From the NCBI GenBank assembly GCA_024695405.1, contig JAILIF010000072.1:1-38042 (forward strand): 38,042 nt of DNA, given 5' to 3'. The stretch is from Bacilli bacterium (GTDB lineage Bacteria; Bacillota_I; Bacilli_A; RFN20; CAG-826). Under the pieces are notes generated by a model. The model saw nothing but the letters and a program-made list of their open reading frames with translations, was not told where the DNA came from and did not search any database. A program made the translations under genes and the position numbers. Below are positions 650 to 7,575 of this stretch, piece by piece. Each line of letters begins with the position of its first letter. The first letter of the stretch is position 1.

Positions 650-3600
650 CTATTTCTTTTTATCTTTTTTGCCGAACAGTCTTCCAAAGAAGCCTTTCTT
701 CTTAGGAGATTCTTCGACTTGTTCTTCTTCTGCTGGATCTTCTGGAATCTCTTCGGACACAGATTCATCAACTGGAGATTCATCATTGGTTGTGTCTTCA
801 ACAACTTCATCAACAGGTTCTTCAACAGAATCATCAGCTGTTTCTTCTTGATCAGCATCTTCTATAGATGCTTCATCTTCTACTGGTTCTTCTGCTGGTG
901 CTTCTTCAACAGGTTCTTCATTAACTACTTCTTCAGGAGTCACCTCATTAGATTCAGGTTCAGAATCATCACTTGTCTCTTTAGCAGGTTCTTCGTCAGC
1001 GACTGATTCTTCTGTTGGTGCTTCATCAGTTAAAAGTTCTTCATTAGCTTCTTCAGCAGGAATTTCTTCAACAGGAGCATCCTCAACTGGTTCTTCTACT
1101 GGTTCTTCTACTGGTGCTTCCTCAACAACAGGAGCAGCCTCTTCAACTGTTTCCTCAACAACTGGAGCTTCTTCTTCAGGTGTTGGTTCTTCAATTTGTT
1201 CTTCAGCTACAGGTGTCTCTTCAACAGCTGGTTCTTCTGTAGGAACTTCTTCAGGAGCTGGTTCTTCAACAGGAGTTTCTGCTGAAACCTCTTCATTTGT
1301 GTCGTCAGCGACTGATTCTTCTGCTGGCGCTTCTTCAACAATTGGAGTTTCATCAGTCAAAAGTTCTTCATTAGCTTCTTCAGCAGGAATTTCTTCAACA
1401 GGAGTATTCTCAACTGGAGCAGTTTCATCAATTGAAGCTTCTTCGACTGCAGGTTCACCTTCTGAAGCTAATTCTTCATTAGGTTCTTCAGCTGGAACTT
1501 CTTCAGGCTCTACATCCTCTTCGACAGGAGCTTCTTCTGGAGCTGGTTCTTCTTCAACAGCTTTGCCTTTTTTATCTTTTTTGTCTTTCTTACCGAATAA
1601 TCTAGCGAATAAGCCTTTCTTCTTTGGCTTTTCTTCAACTTTTTCTTCTTCACTAGGAGCGTCTTCGACGTCTTCTTCTACTGGAGTTGCTTCCTCTTCG
1701 ACTGGTTCTTCAGTAACTTCGTCACCGACCGATTCTTCTTCTGCTACATGTTCTTCAGCAACATCTTCTGCAGGAGCTTCTTCGATAACTTCGTCAACAA
1801 GTTCCTCTACAGGCATTTCTTCTGCAGGAGCATCCTCAACTGGAGCAGCCTCTTCAGCTGATTCCTCTACTGGTGTTTCCTCAACAGCTGGAACTTCTTC
1901 GACTACTGGTGCTTCTTCTACAGGAGTTTCTTCAACAGGTGCAGGTTCAGCAGCAGGTTCTTCATTGACAGCAGCTGCTACAGCAACTGCTTCTGCTACA
2001 GGAGCAGCATCAACTGGTTTTGAACCAACTTTAACTTTAACTTCTCTAATTAAACCTCTTTCGAGAAGTGCTTTGTTATCTTCATATGGTTGGATGTAAG
2101 ATTCATGTTCTTCACTAACTTTTTCAAAGCCTAAGTTTTTATTAACTTCAGCAATCAATTCTTTAGCGTAATTAAATCTTCTATCGCTCTTAATACGGTA
2201 TAGTGATGGAACAGCAGCAAACTTCTTAGAAGTTATCTTTTCGAGTTTGTACTTAGAGTCAGCATAGTCATCGGCATTAAGTGGGAAGTAAACACAAAGT
2301 GTTTTGCCTCTAACTGCAAATTTCATAACTGGATTACGTCCACAGTTAATGGAATCAAAACTCCAAGTTACTGTACTCTTTGATTTCTTATAAGAAAGTG
2401 CTTCGTTCTTTAAGCCTTCATAGAAAGCTTTTGCTTCATCACTTGCTTGAATGAGTTTTGCTTCAAATGATTTAGAGAATCTAATCTCAAAGAGATTACC
2501 TTCTTTATCTTTTTCAACAACAATTGTCTCACCTTCAGCGTTAACTTTAGTTTCAACAACTTCCATACCTTCTTCGGCAACAAAGTCATCAACTTCTTCA
2601 TTATCTTCAGCAGGAACTTCTTCACTAGGAGCAGCCTCTTCAACCGCAGTTTCTTCTACAGCTGGTTCTTCAACAACTTCTGGAGTTGGTTCTTCTTCTA
2701 CAACTGCTTCCTCTACTGGTGCTTCTTCTACAACTGCTTCCTCAATTGGTTGTTCTTCAACAGGTGCAGGTTCTTCAGTAGCAGGTTCTTCAACTACAGG
2801 AGCAGCCTCAGCTGGTCTATCAATCTTGACTTTAACTTCTCTTACTAAACCTCTAGCAAGAAGTGCGTTGTTGTCTTCATATGGTAAAACGTAAGATTCA
2901 TTTTGTTGATCGCCTTTTTCTAATCCAAGAGCTTCAGCAACAACAGCAATGAGTTCTTTAACGTATTCGCATCTTCTATCACTCTTAATGCGGTATAAAC
3001 TTGGTACTAATGCAAACTTCTTAGAAGTGATCTTCTCAAGTTTATATTTAGATTCAGCATAGTCATCAGCATTGAGTGGGAAGTAGGCGCAAAGTGTTTT
3101 ACCTCTAACAGCAAACTTAATAACAGGATTACGTCCACTATTGATTGAGTCAAAGCTCCAAGTAACTATACTCTTAGTTTTATTGTATGAAAGAGCCTCG
3201 TTTTTCAATATTTCATAATATGATTTAGCCTCATCACTTGCTTGAATGAGTTTTGCTTCAAAAGATTTAGAGAATCTAATTTCAAAGAAATTACCTTCTT
3301 TATCTTTCTCAACGACAATTGTTTCACCTTCAGCGTTAACTTTAGTTTCAACAACTTCCATTCCTTCTTCAACGATAATATCTTCTTTTTCTTCCTCTTC
3401 AGCAGGAACTTCTTCGACTGGAGCAGTTTCTTCAACAGGAGTTTCTTCGGCTTGCTCTTCTATTGGAGCTTCTTCAGTAACTTCTTCTTCAACTGGCTGT
3501 TCATCGTTAACAGTTTCTTCAACAACTTCTTCAGTCACTGAAGTGTCTTCAATTACTTCTTCAGCAACTGGTGTTTCTTCAACTGCTGCCTCTTCAACTG

Positions 3601-4954
3601 CGACTTCTTCAGCTGCTGTTTCTAAAGCTTCTTCAGGTATAGTCATAGCAGGAAGTGGCTTACTAATATATTTCTTAATAAATTCGACACGGCTAATAAT
3701 GAAATCTCTATAGATTTTGAATTCGCCTTTCTTTTGTGGATCGATTTTAATTATTAATTTCTTAAACAATTCAGGTTTAAGTTTTGGTATCTTTGCTTTT
3801 CTAGCAAATTTCTTAACTAGCTTATTGCTCTTAAAGAAAGTTATAAAGTTTCTTACAGATGGATCATTCACAGGAGCAAGTTTTAAGTCTTCTAAGCAGC
3901 GGTTATTATCAAAGTTTGGTGCCAGTCTTAAAACTTCGCCTGTTTGTTTATTTCTTAATAAACCCATATCATTTAGGGTTCTATCATTGTTACTAGTAAT
4001 AGCGTCTAAATAACGTAATCTAATGTAGTCTTTAAGTGCTTCTTTGCCGTATGGCTTTAAAAACTCAAAAATACCTAAATAATCATCTTTATTATCAACT
4101 ACACCAAAGAATGGTTCAAAGTTGAACTTTTCAGCAAAGTTTCTACATTTAACACCATCTTCAGTTTTTACATAATGTATAGTAAAGAAATCTAATTCTC
4201 TTGCGAGTCTCTCTACAAGTTGATCATTGAAAACTTGTTCAGGGGTTTCTTTTTTATGCATCCACCAAGCACCATTTTCAAAAATCCAACATTTTTCAGT
4301 TTCGCCTGGTGTAGTTATTTCTGGTGTTCTACCAGGTGCCATTGGATATTCTCTTTTTAAACCATCATAAGCAACACCAGAATATAAATTCTTTCCGAAT
4401 CTTAAATCAGAAAATTTTGTAACAGCGCCGCTAGGTTTAAACCAATAGTTATCGGTAAGACTACGCCCATTGACATAGAAAGGAATTACAGAAGAGTCTT
4501 TGTCTTTTATCTTGACTGCACGTAAAAGTTCACGTCTATTTTCTCTTCTATCATCAATTACTCTATTTGCAAAGTATGTCGAAGCATTTGTACATTTTCT
4601 AAAGAATAAAGGAGCAAGATTTTCATCTATTGATGAAGCTTCACCTTTATATAACTTAGCGGCGACCTTGTCACCACACATTAAATATCCGGTAAAATTC
4701 TTTTCTCTTTTAGTTAAAGGAGGCATTTCGATATAGCCTGAGCTCAATTCTCTAACTTCTCTCTCAATATCCTTTCTTTGAGCTAACTTCGCTTCAGTAT
4801 CAGCAAGTTCTGCTGCAGGAACATAAAAGCTTAAAACTTTTCCTTTATGAAAATACTGGCGGTAGGTATATACTTTGCCTTTGATTGTTTTTCTAGAGAT
4901 ATAGCCTCTAGGCGTATCTCTTAATTGAAGCAATAATTCATCTAGTCTTTCCAT
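650..4954 (-). CDS. Giant HipA-like kinase-domain protein with two repeated modules and acidic EE/P-rich linkers
   Basis: 1434 residues in distinct blocks. Residues 1-75 form a small basic domain (RGYISRKTIKGKVYTYRQY). Residues ~165-435 resemble the C-terminal kinase fold of HipA proteins: a catalytic-loop-like SNNDRTLNDMGLL (Asp324) and a DFG-like LAPNFDNN (Asp349). Residues 441-525, 713-792, 978-1109 and 1132-1416 are low-complexity, Glu/Pro/Val/Ala-rich (VEEAPVEE type). Residues 526-712 and 793-977 are two similar copies of a ~185-residue module. KKKGLFARLFGKK at 1111-1123 recurs as KKKGFFGRLFGKK at 1418-1430, the C-terminus. No signal peptide or membrane helix is seen and no hipB lies alongside. 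The promoter appears to give a leaderless mRNA. The kinase assignment is by motif only; substrate and role are unknown. It sits between an IS200-like element and pckA. Stop is TAG. Confidence 0.7.
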   Translation of the reverse strand: MERLDELLLQLRDTPRGYISRKTIKGKVYTYRQYFHKGKVLSFYVPAAELADTEAKLAQRKDIEREVRELSSGYIEMPPLTKREKNFTGYLMCGDKVAAKLYKGEASSIDENLAPLFFRKCTNASTYFANRVIDDRRENRRELLRAVKIKDKDSSVIPFYVNGRSLTDNYWFKPSGAVTKFSDLRFGKNLYSGVAYDGLKREYPMAPGRTPEITTPGETEKCWIFENGAWWMHKKETPEQVFNDQLVERLARELDFFTIHYVKTEDGVKCRNFAEKFNFEPFFGVVDNKDDYLGIFEFLKPYGKEALKDYIRLRYLDAITSNNDRTLNDMGLLRNKQTGEVLRLAPNFDNNRCLEDLKLAPVNDPSVRNFITFFKSNKLVKKFARKAKIPKLKPELFKKLIIKIDPQKKGEFKIYRDFIISRVEFIKKYISKPLPAMTIPEEALETAAEEVAVEEAAVEETPVAEEVIEDTSVTEEVVEETVNDEQPVEEEVTEEAPIEEQAEETPVEETAPVEEVPAEEEEKEDIIVEEGMEVVETKVNAEGETIVVEKDKEGNFFEIRFSKSFEAKLIQASDEAKSYYEILKNEALSYNKTKSIVTWSFDSINSGRNPVIKFAVRGKTLCAYFPLNADDYAESKYKLEKITSKKFALVPSLYRIKSDRRCEYVKELIAVVAEALGLEKGDQQNESYVLPYEDNNALLARGLVREVKVKIDRPAEAAPVVEEPATEEPAPVEEQPIEEAVVEEAPVEEAVVEEEPTPEVVEEPAVEETAVEEAAPSEEVPAEDNEEVDDFVAEEGMEVVETKVNAEGETIVVEKDKEGNLFEIRFSKSFEAKLIQASDEAKAFYEGLKNEALSYKKSKSTVTWSFDSINCGRNPVMKFAVRGKTLCVYFPLNADDYADSKYKLEKITSKKFAAVPSLYRIKSDRRFNYAKELIAEVNKNLGFEKVSEEHESYIQPYEDNKALLERGLIREVKVKVGSKPVDAAPVAEAVAVAAAVNEEPAAEPAPVEETPVEEAPVVEEVPAVEETPVEESAEEAAPVEDAPAEEMPVEELVDEVIEEAPAEDVAEEHVAEEESVGDEVTEEPVEEEATPVEEDVEDAPSEEEKVEEKPKKKGLFARLFGKKDKKDKKGKAVEEEPAPEEAPVEEDVEPEEVPAEEPNEELASEGEPAVEEASIDETAPVENTPVEEIPAEEANEELLTDETPIVEEAPAEESVADDTNEEVSAETPVEEPAPEEVPTEEPAVEETPVAEEQIEEPTPEEEAPVVEETVEEAAPVVEEAPVEEPVEEPVEDAPVEEIPAEEANEELLTDEAPTEESVADEEPAKETSDDSEPESNEVTPEEVVNEEPVEEAPAEEPVEDEASIEDADQEETADDSVEEPVDEVVEDTTNDESPVDESVSEEIPEDPAEEEQVEESPKKKGFFGRLFGKKDKKK
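1032..1404. repeat. 46-bp exact direct repeat inside the acidic region
   Basis: The same 46 bases occur at 1032-1077 and 1359-1404, 327 bp apart (109 codons, in frame). They encode most of PVEEIPAEEANEELL. The repeat indicates growth of the acidic stretch by unequal recombination, and makes its length likely to vary between strains. Confidence 0.85.
2024..2578 (-). repeat. Copy 2 of the duplicated ~185-residue module
   Basis: Encodes residues 793-977. It differs from copy 1 by scattered substitutions (for example SINSGRNPVIKF against SINCGRNPVMKF) without visible large indels, so it is an in-gene duplication that has diverged moderately. The copies are separated by an 80-residue acidic linker. 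Confidence 0.8.
2819..3379 (-). repeat. Copy 1 of a duplicated ~185-residue module
   Basis: Encodes residues 526-712 of the giant protein, from EEGMEVVETKVNAEGETIVV to VREVKVKI. Conserved anchors shared with copy 2 include RFSKSFEAKLIQASDEAK, VTWSFDSIN, RGKTLCxYFPLNADDYA, SLYRIKSDRR and a closing REVKVK. From memory, similar modules recur in uncharacterised Firmicutes proteins; I cannot name a family. Confidence 0.8.
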
Positions 4955-4960
4955 AAAATA

Positions 4961-4989
4961 ATTATAATTATTGTTAACCCTTGATTCAA
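4961..4989 (-). promoter_or_regulatory. Sigma-70-type promoter placing +1 at the ATG of the HipA-like gene
   Basis: On the minus strand TTGAAT (4984-4989) is followed after 17 bp by a perfect TATAAT (4961-4966). Only six bases separate the -10 box from the start codon at 4954, so the predicted transcript begins at or beside the ATG. No Shine-Dalgarno sequence precedes the start, in agreement with a leaderless mRNA. Confidence 0.65.
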
Positions 4990-5004: not shown

Positions 5005-5030
5005 CTAAAAAAAGCCGGAAAAGCCCGGCT
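5005..5030 (-). terminator. Terminator of pckA
   Basis: Minus-strand stem AGCCGG/CCGGCT (5025-5030 and 5013-5018) with a 6-nt loop, followed by a run of T. It lies about 28 bp past the pckA stop and just upstream of the promoter of the next leftward gene. Confidence 0.85.
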
Positions 5031-5057
5031 TCATTTTATAGGTTAACTATTAGCAAA

Positions 5058-6662
5058 CTACTTTGTAGGTCCTGCTTTTACTAAAGCTTTGCCTGCTTCG
5101 TTTGATTCATATTTAACGAAGTTTTTGATAAATCTATCAGCTAAGTCAACTGCTTTAACTTCCCAGTCATTAGTATTAGCATATGTATCTCTTGGATCTA
5201 AGATCTTTGGATCAACACCTGGTAATGCAGTTGGAACTGCTAAGTTGAAATGTGGAATAATTTTTGTTTCTGCTTTGTTGATTGAGCCATCTAAGATAGC
5301 ATCAATGATACCTCTTGTATCTTTGATGGAGATACGTTTACCTGTACCATTCCAACCTGTATTAACTAAGTAAGCTTTAGCACCACTTGCTTTCATCTTC
5401 TTAACTAATTCTTCAGCGTATTTAGTTGGGTGTAATTCAAGGAATGCTTGACCGAAACATGCTGAGAATGTTGGAGTTGGTTCTGTAATACCTCTTTCAG
5501 TGCCTGCTAACTTAGCAGTGAAGCCTGATAAGAAGTAGTATTGAGTTTGTTCAGGAGTAAGAACACTAACTGGAGGTAAGACACCAAATGCATCAGCTGA
5601 TAAGAAGATAACGTTCTTTGCTGCTGGAGCACTACTGATTGGTCTTACGATATTCTTAATGTGGTTAATTGGGTAGCTAACACGTGTGTTTTCTGTAACG
5701 CTCTTGTCAGCGAAGTCGATTTTGCCATTAGCATCAACAGTAACGTTTTCTAATAAAGCGTTTCTCTTAATTGCATTATAGATATCTGGTTCACTATCTT
5801 TATCAAGATTGATAACTTTAGCGTAACAACCACCTTCGAAGTTGAAGACACCATTGTCATCCCAACCGTGTTCATCATCACCGATTAATAATCTCTTTGG
5901 ATCAGTTGATAATGTTGTTTTACCTGTACCTGATAAACCGAAGAAGATAGCTGTGTTTTTGCCATCCATATCAGTATTTGCGGAACAGTGCATGCTTGCC
6001 ATACCTTTAAGTGGTAAGTAGTAGTTCATCATTGAGAACATACCTTTTTTCATTTCACCACCATACCATGTGTTGATGATGACTTGTTCTCTACTTGTGA
6101 TATTGAACATAACAGCTGTTTCACTGTTTAAGCCTAATTCTTTGTAGTTAGTAACTTTTGCTTTTGAAGCATTGTAGACGATGAAGTCTGGTTCAAAGTT
6201 AGCTAATTCTTCAGCAGTTGGTTGAATGAACATGTTCTTAATGAAATGTGCTTGCCATGCAACTTCGACGATGAATCTAACTGCCATTCTTGTATCTTTG
6301 TTAGCGCCACAGAATGCATCAACTACATATAATTTCTTACCGCTTAATTCTTTAACAGCGATTTCTTTACATGCGTCCCATGCTTCTTTAGTTGCTGGGT
6401 GGTTATCGTTTTTGTAACCTTCTGATGTCCACCAAACAGTATCTTTTGAATTTTCATCCATAACGATGAATTTGTCCTTAGGTGAACGACCTGTGTAAAC
6501 ACCAGTCATGACGTTAACAGCGCCTAATTCAGTTACTTTTCCAACCTCGTAACCTTCTAATCCTGCTTTTGTTTCTTCTTCGAATAAGAGTTCGTAGCTA
6601 GGATTGTAGACAACTTCTTTTACGTCTTTAATTCCGTATTTTGATAAATCAATAATTGCCAT
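5058..6662 (-). CDS. pckA: Phosphoenolpyruvate carboxykinase (ATP)
   Basis: Interconverts oxaloacetate plus ATP with phosphoenolpyruvate, CO2 and ADP in the cytosol. 534 residues, the normal length of the ATP-type enzyme. Visible motifs: the substrate loop TGRSPKDKF (~57-65), a P-loop [16 protein letters not shown] (~242-257) and the metal-binding GDDEHGW (~261-267). The start ATG is preceded by AAAAGGAGATAATTT, a strong ribosome binding site. It is a single-gene unit with its own terminator, divergent from the relB/PIN pair. In anaerobic gut bacteria it often runs toward oxaloacetate to make ATP; the direction here is not shown by the sequence. Stop is TAG. Confidence 0.97.
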
Positions 6663-6781: not shown

Positions 6782-6809
6782 TGTAATCATTTGTAATCAG
6801 TTGTTTACA
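6782..6809. promoter_or_regulatory. Phased octamer repeats overlapping the relB promoter (candidate operator)
   Basis: TGTAATCA occurs at 6782-6789 and 6792-6799, and TGTTTACA, close to its reverse complement, at 6802-6809: three octamers exactly 10 bp apart, on one face of the helix. The last two form an 18-bp imperfect palindrome. They cover the -35 region of the toxin-antitoxin promoter, where RelB-type antitoxins usually bind to repress their own operon. Confidence 0.5.
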
Positions 6810-6830
6810 AAATTTATAGTTTTATATAAT
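6801..6830 (+). promoter_or_regulatory. Promoter of the relB/PIN operon
   Basis: A perfect TATAAT box at 6825-6830 lies 27 bp before the relB start. Upstream, TTGTTT (6801-6806, 18-bp spacer) or TTTACA (6804-6809, 15-bp spacer) could act as -35 element. The region overlaps the phased octamer repeats. Confidence 0.55.
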
Positions 6831-6857
6831 ATAAAAATAGGTTTTGGAGGGATTTCT

Positions 6858-7142
6858 ATGGGTGCATTGGTCCAATTTAGAGTTGATAATGATTTAAAAA
6901 ATCAAGCAACAAAAATTTGCGAGGATATTGGATTAGATTTACAGTCTTATTTAAGAATGTGTTTGAAACAATTAGTAAACCAGAAAGGAGTCCCGTTAAT
7001 CATGCATACAATATCAGATGAAGAAATAATGGATGCAATTAGAAATTGCAATAAACATTCAAAAGAAAATGGTCTTGATAAGATGGCCATGGAAGAAATT
7101 GATGAAACAATTGCTGAATGTAGAAAAGAAAGAAGGAAATGA
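6858..7142 (+). CDS. RelB/DinJ-family antitoxin
   Basis: Antitoxin of a type II toxin-antitoxin pair; expected to bind its DNA operator through an N-terminal ribbon-helix-helix and to neutralise the toxin with its C-terminal part. 94 residues. The N-terminus, MGALVQFRVDNDLKNQATKI followed by GLDLQSYLRMCLKQLV, is typical of RelB/DinJ. I chose ATG 6858 because it follows TTGGAGGG at a normal distance; an upstream in-frame TTG would lie within the promoter. Its stop overlaps the toxin start as ATGA, indicating translational coupling. It is one of only two genes here ending in TGA. Pairing of a RelB-like antitoxin with a PIN toxin, not RelE, is a known but less common combination. Confidence 0.85.
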   Translation: MGALVQFRVDNDLKNQATKICEDIGLDLQSYLRMCLKQLVNQKGVPLIMHTISDEEIMDAIRNCNKHSKENGLDKMAMEEIDETIAECRKERRK

Positions 7143-7575
7143 AGTTTAATTGTGTCATAGACACCAACATAATTATTTCTGCTTTGCTTAAAAACGATTC
7201 GAATCCTGGCAAGATAATTAAATTTGTAAAAGATTTAGTAATAATTCCTTATTACAACGCAAATATTTTAGAAGAGTACCAAAAAGTACTCAATTATGAA
7301 AAGTTTTTCTTTGATAAAAACACATCTTTATATGCGCTTGCACTTTTCATCAAAAAAGGATTCACTCAAAATCACTTTTTACATTCAACATTTGAATTCA
7401 ATGATGAATATGATCAAATTCTCTATGAAACATATTTGAGTTTGAGTAGCGAAAAAGAAAATTGTTATTTGATTACAGGAAATAAAAGCATTTTCCTAAT
7501 GAAACAAATATAGTTTCTCCAAAAGAAATGATTGAAATAATCAATTTAAGCAAAGAAAGCAAACAAAACGAATAA
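7139..7575 (+). pseudogene. PIN-domain toxin (COG1569-like), frameshifted near the 3' end
   Basis: Putative Mg-dependent ribonuclease toxin. The frame starting at 7139 gives MKFNCVIDTNIIISALLKND with the PIN acidic residues Asp8, Glu45/46 and Asp92 in NDEYDQILYE, then CYLITGN. It then ends early at a TAG (7511-7513) after 124 residues. Reading the -1 frame from the A-run at 7484-7487 instead gives KHFPNETNIVSPKEMIEIIN and a stop at 7573-7575, exactly the C-terminal block expected for this family (about 145 residues). One A appears to be missing from the run. The pair may be decaying, the toxin may be silenced, or the base call may be wrong. Confidence 0.82.

Follow-up and report, generated by a model that had tools for sequence, protein, structure and literature searches.

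The gene at positions 650-4954 of the 38,042-nucleotide stretch of DNA analysed here (hereafter the window) encodes a protein of an uncultured gut bacterium that joins a HipA/CtkA-like kinase head to a lineage-specific module in two copies, long acidic linkers and two basic-aromatic motifs. The reading we favour, with somewhat less than even confidence, is that this single-copy, lineage-specific fusion is a peripheral inner-membrane scaffold carrying a remodelled HipA-like head. The head still has the kinase fold, together with the ATP lysine and the aspartate for the metal, but its catalytic loop is remodelled, and from this combination we infer that it is more likely a pseudokinase, or a weak or altered kinase, than an active HipA-type toxin. 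The original prediction, made from the sequence alone, had already placed the kinase in a long extended scaffold, and the evidence laid out below supports that view.

Integrity and genomic context of the gene

The gene lies on the reverse strand (650..4954, -) and forms one open frame of 1434 codons plus stop, started by an ATG and without an internal stop, so the single intact frame reported earlier holds, as does the proposed layout of a kinase part, two modules, acidic stretches and two basic motifs. The source is a MAG of 1.45 Mb in 108 contigs with 87% completeness, in which the window corresponds to contig C97. The fragmented state of this MAG and the absence of the fusion from the other genomes searched are what would be expected if a kinase gene and the gene for a surface-protein tail had been wrongly joined during assembly, a danger that the original prediction had pointed out. 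However, the reading frame continues across the junction, and the protein ends in a tail of its own instead of the L15-like domain found in the surface proteins. Moreover, exact repeats at the kinase/linker junction are short, the longest measuring 20 nt against the remainder of the gene and 16 nt against the other loci checked in the same genome, which makes a join through a repeat unlikely. The genome's only rpoA is located on the same contig and has its nearest relatives in the same family (79% identity); together with the short junction repeats, this argues against contamination as well as against a repeat-mediated join, and we regard an assembly chimera as highly improbable. A 46-nt exact repeat within the acidic tail makes the length of that portion less certain.

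The fusion gene is flanked by pckA and by an IS200-type transposase gene, the latter at the contig end. A terminator-like hairpin (5011..5032, -) lies between pckA and the fusion gene and indicates that the two are separate transcription units. The pckA gene (window 5058-6662, -) was not found in 12 relatives and, given the transposase on the other flank, the fusion gene may lie in an accessory region that is unstable. A promoter-like TTGAAT-17-TATAAT sequence (window 4954-4989, -) stops 7 bases short of the ATG, and a Shine-Dalgarno sequence is lacking; the transcript is possibly leaderless, although such promoter-like sites are not above chance in this region. Elsewhere in the window are a gene pair encoding a RelB-like antitoxin and a PIN_3 domain protein, of the ordinary toxin-antitoxin type (6801-7513, +), and a gene for a CotH-like kinase family protein (PF08757; 35838-37820, -).

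Family and fold of the kinase-like head

The protein begins with a small, weakly DUF6788-like domain (residues 1-75; 4730..4954, -). Matches to DUF6788 (PF20586) at E<=0.1 were obtained for 11 of 44 family members, the best at 0.0028, and for the window copy there was none. The same domain also exists on its own as a small protein, of 130 aa on contig C91 of the same genome and likewise in many relatives. It is followed by the HipA/CtkA-like kinase domain (residues 86-430; 3665..4699, -). Residues 1-430 belong to a family of HipA/CtkA-like kinases found in gut and rumen Bacilli and Clostridia, with relatives in the same order at E values down to 2.6e-71. Single-sequence searches of Pfam, NCBIfam and the PDB with the kinase part alone returned nothing useful, and a family alignment (44 members, including the window protein) was needed; its profile matched CtkA in the PDB (E 1.4e-8). 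Pfam HipA_C (PF07804) was matched by 43 of the 44 aligned members, the sole exception being the window protein, which gave no match at E<=0.1, nor was any PF07804 match present elsewhere in its genome. The AlphaFold2 model of the kinase part has a mean pLDDT of 93, and its first Foldseek matches are HipA (4pu5, E 2.3e-7) and CtkA (3akj, E 3.1e-7); as modelled, the domain has the HipA/PI-kinase fold, in agreement with what had been proposed. A comparison with PDC-M03, a candidate defence system of PADLOC, gave one chain with a weak M03A match (E 5e-5) and a marginal M03B match (0.017). Matches to Extensin_1, UDG_fam4, FRB and SAM_PNT were set aside as products of composition or chance.

A search of public genomes with the kinase part returned 168 places, and we kept the best 80. 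Among these best 80 of 168 loci, the other full-length close homologues are unfused frames of about 345-490 aa, and the same holds for those in the 245 genomes searched within the order and the 395 searched within the class; looking for the same domain order in related genomes had been suggested with the original prediction. Neither of the two genomes searched from the same genus, both incomplete, yielded the fusion, and one of them carries a stand-alone kinase. The fusion is known from one MAG, without an orthologue, which is the chief weakness, and our literature search found no description of it.

Remodelling of the active site

The active site was compared across 88 sequences, namely 87 homologues and the window protein. 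E244, H326 and N329 are invariant in 87/87 homologues, and the window protein has D, T and D at these positions, respectively. The catalytic loop (residues 324-329; 3968..3985, -) consequently reads DRTLND where the family consensus is DRHxxN, and by alignment residue 244 (4223..4225, -) is D; H326T and N329D are found in the window protein only. K234, D324, R325, D349 and N351 are kept, and so are 42 of the 50 columns in which at least 90% of the family agree, which points to a focused change rather than general decay. The HipA-type catalytic motifs described earlier are thus present in part: K234 is there, as are D324 and D349 from the HipA-type DxHxxN motif and metal aspartate, but the H and N are replaced (T326, D329) and the motif is not intact.

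In the work on HipT (PMC10627512), the catalytic Asp210 and His212 of the D-x-H motif contact or hold the Gly-rich loop at its phosphoserine, and the D233Q variant is said to lack activity. On the basis of the common D-x-H pattern, D324 and the H326T position would equate with Asp210 and His212 of HipT. Kinase activity in the window protein may have been lost or changed. The N-to-D change at the metal site and the E-to-D change could still be compatible with catalysis. It is therefore worth weighing a membrane-localised active kinase, in which D329 would take the place of N in metal binding and the fusion would aim the kinase at substrates gathered by the modules. The five retained residues, the high-confidence fold model (pLDDT 93) and the analogy with a PrkC kinase bearing the same tail (see below) are in its favour, but three positions invariant in 87/87 relatives have been altered together and the protein is the only family member without a Pfam HipA_C match, which leaves this reading rather unlikely.

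Fold and family membership might also suggest a toxin-antitoxin system with this protein as a HipA-type persistence toxin. Besides the altered catalytic loop, the surroundings of the gene oppose this: no hipB/hipS-like gene lies beside it, its neighbours being pckA and the IS200 transposase, and the terminator sets it apart as a separate transcription unit. Across about 80 homologue loci (the best 80 of 168), no neighbouring gene is conserved and no antitoxin is co-conserved. A toxin is thus scarcely credible here, in line with the original prediction that the protein is not a classical persistence toxin.

The repeated modules

Two modules of some 185 residues had been predicted and were found at residues 531-711 (2822..3364, -) and 796-976 (2027..2569, -), with 83% mutual identity. 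Between the two copies dN is 0.106 and dS is 0.86 (dN/dS about 0.12), indicating purifying selection on the modules. This bears on whether the protein is a non-functional relic, in which a rearrangement fused a kinase gene to a surface-protein tail and the product is now decaying. The restriction of the fusion to one genome, the adjoining transposase and the degenerate active site would all be consistent with such an origin. However, in addition to the selection on the modules, the 1434 codons contain no premature stop, and the active-site changes are few and clustered, with 42 of the 50 strongly conserved columns kept, and we consider a decaying relic improbable.

Neither Pfam nor the PDB sequences contain the module, which has no above-threshold match to the YdhG/YjbR Pfam families, and we recognised no paper on it in the literature. 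The top PDB fold matches of its model (pLDDT 92.8) are all to YdhG/DUF1801 or YjbR proteins (E 0.05-0.15, prob 0.85-0.99), which is suggestive only of a YdhG/YjbR-like fold. A kinship between module and kinase was also considered and rejected (hhalign probability 0.5%).

Of the 245 genomes searched in the order, 198 contain the module. In the cases read, it mostly occurs in one to three copies behind a transmembrane segment, in what is presumably the cytoplasmic end of large surface proteins of up to 4913 aa; an L15-like domain often follows (E about 1e-12 to PF00828). The same genome encodes one such module-bearing surface protein of 878 aa (contig C96), whose module is 72% identical. Going beyond the original prediction, the module is a widespread, lineage-specific domain of surface-protein tails. 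The fusion protein itself has no transmembrane segment and no L15-like end.

Giant surface proteins of this kind, with a transmembrane segment, tandem modules and an L15-like ribosomal-protein domain, are encoded at loci L177, L178, L183, L184, L186 and L188. Modules were also seen in other settings. At L181:1385-4534 a SipW-type signal peptidase is fused to three modules; its gene has that of a small secreted-looking protein on one side and that of a repeat-rich surface protein on the other. A DUF2357 protein carries seven modules and a basic tail ending in RKSFFARLRMAFKNRR / RKSFFARLRMAFKNRRAKNK; at L179:73-7495 the gene for the seven-module DUF2357 protein is placed in the middle, between those for a membrane AAA+ protein and a signal peptidase.

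Acidic linkers, basic motifs and the tail of a PrkC-like kinase

By composition, acidic linkers occupy residues 435-530 (3365..3652, -) and 712-795 (2570..2821, -), and the acidic tail is divided into a first part at residues 977-1108 (1631..2026, -) and a second at residues 1124-1416 (707..1585, -). The 592 linker residues counted include 242 D/E and 7 K/R, so that the earlier description of more than 500 Glu/Pro/Val-rich residues was right. The acidic tail is interrupted by an internal basic-aromatic motif, KPKKKGLFARLFGKK (residues 1109-1123; 1586..1630, -), and closed by a C-terminal one, PKKKGFFGRLFGKKDKKK (residues 1417-1434; 653..706, -), whose basic core PKKKGFFGRLFGKK (residues 1417-1430) stops four residues before the end; these are the two cationic motifs that had been noted. 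Reading them as amphipathic helices was abandoned, since their helical hydrophobic moment is no better than that of shuffled versions.

One clear second copy of the terminal KKKGFFGRLFGKK tail is present in the same genome: as KKKGFFARLFGRKK, it closes a 294-residue PrkC/Stk1-like kinase devoid of a transmembrane segment or PASTA domains. The PrkC homologues of relatives likewise end in a short basic-aromatic tail; PASTA domains had no match in the same genome and exceeded the cut-off in only 5 of 38 relatives. Across the order, PrkC looks like a kinase whose extracellular sensor was swapped for a membrane-binding tail. The uncultured orders RFN20, RF39 and ML615J-28 include lineages without peptidoglycan (PMC10868615), and peptidoglycan loss in related orders would fit the loss of PASTA domains. 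By analogy with this PrkC-like tail, the basic motifs of the fusion protein probably bind the membrane, which lends indirect support to the membrane tethering that had been raised as a possibility. Next to the PrkC/Stk1-like kinase gene (L197:664-1548; also L199-L228) lie genes for an RsgA-like GTPase and a PP2C-type phosphatase. When the tail was searched for with a degenerate DNA pattern, hits came from two genomes only, both at PrkC ends, and the known copies in the same genome were missed; the pattern was dropped.

A proposed role for the fusion protein

In the scaffold reading that we favour, the two basic FF.RLFGKK patches would hold the protein to the acidic inner leaflet (in the lineage's PrkC, this tail stands where the transmembrane and PASTA part would be), and the very acidic linkers would act as extended spacers between the parts. 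Since the modules are the same domain as in the cytoplasmic tails of the surface proteins, they probably bind the same partners. The HipA-like head could serve in nucleotide sensing or partner binding, with its catalysis reduced or altered, and the scaffold would bring it to the surface-protein and secretion zone of the membrane. A more specific version, in which a HipA-family pseudokinase heads a membrane scaffold that gathers the tails of the giant surface proteins or shares their partners, is conceivable but doubtful. If true, it would be a prokaryotic adaptor derived from a former toxin-type kinase.

To our knowledge, nearly all work on HipA-type kinases has treated them as persistence toxins. 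A fused member of the family with an altered active site would, if the scaffold reading is correct, show a route from a toxin-type kinase to a structural or regulatory protein. The data also point to a common unnamed domain that connects a SipW-type signal peptidase and a DUF2357 protein with the giant surface proteins, as well as to a common tail where PrkC would have its transmembrane and PASTA part.

Comparison with known systems

CtkA of Helicobacter pylori (3akj) is the closest solved sequence relative of the kinase part, and CtkA and the HipA_C kinases share with it the fold and the positions of the K, D-R and metal-D motifs. However, CtkA has 325 aa and an intact NFDRHNGN, whereas the fusion protein has DRTLND, an extra N-terminal domain and 1000 further residues. 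The kinase fold is also common to HipA of HipBA and HipT of HipBST, from which the fusion gene differs in being without an antitoxin or HipS gene, in not being part of an operon and in its remodelled active site. The stand-alone HipA/CtkA-like kinases of 345-490 aa, which have no accepted name and are related to the PADLOC candidate PDC-M03A, are homologous over residues 1-430 (90-430 in the shorter ones) with about 29-35% identity; all of them are unfused and have DRHxxN, in contrast to the fused and altered window copy. The PrkC/Stk1 kinase of the same genome has the same C-terminal tail, KKKGFFxRLFGxK, but belongs to the unrelated Hanks-type branch and is without modules. YdhG/DUF1801 and YjbR proteins, of frataxin-like fold, are weakly similar to the module in predicted fold. 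Finally, the module-bearing surface proteins of the order share with the fusion protein the same module and similar acidic linkers, but in place of their transmembrane segment and L15-like end it has a kinase head and a basic tail.
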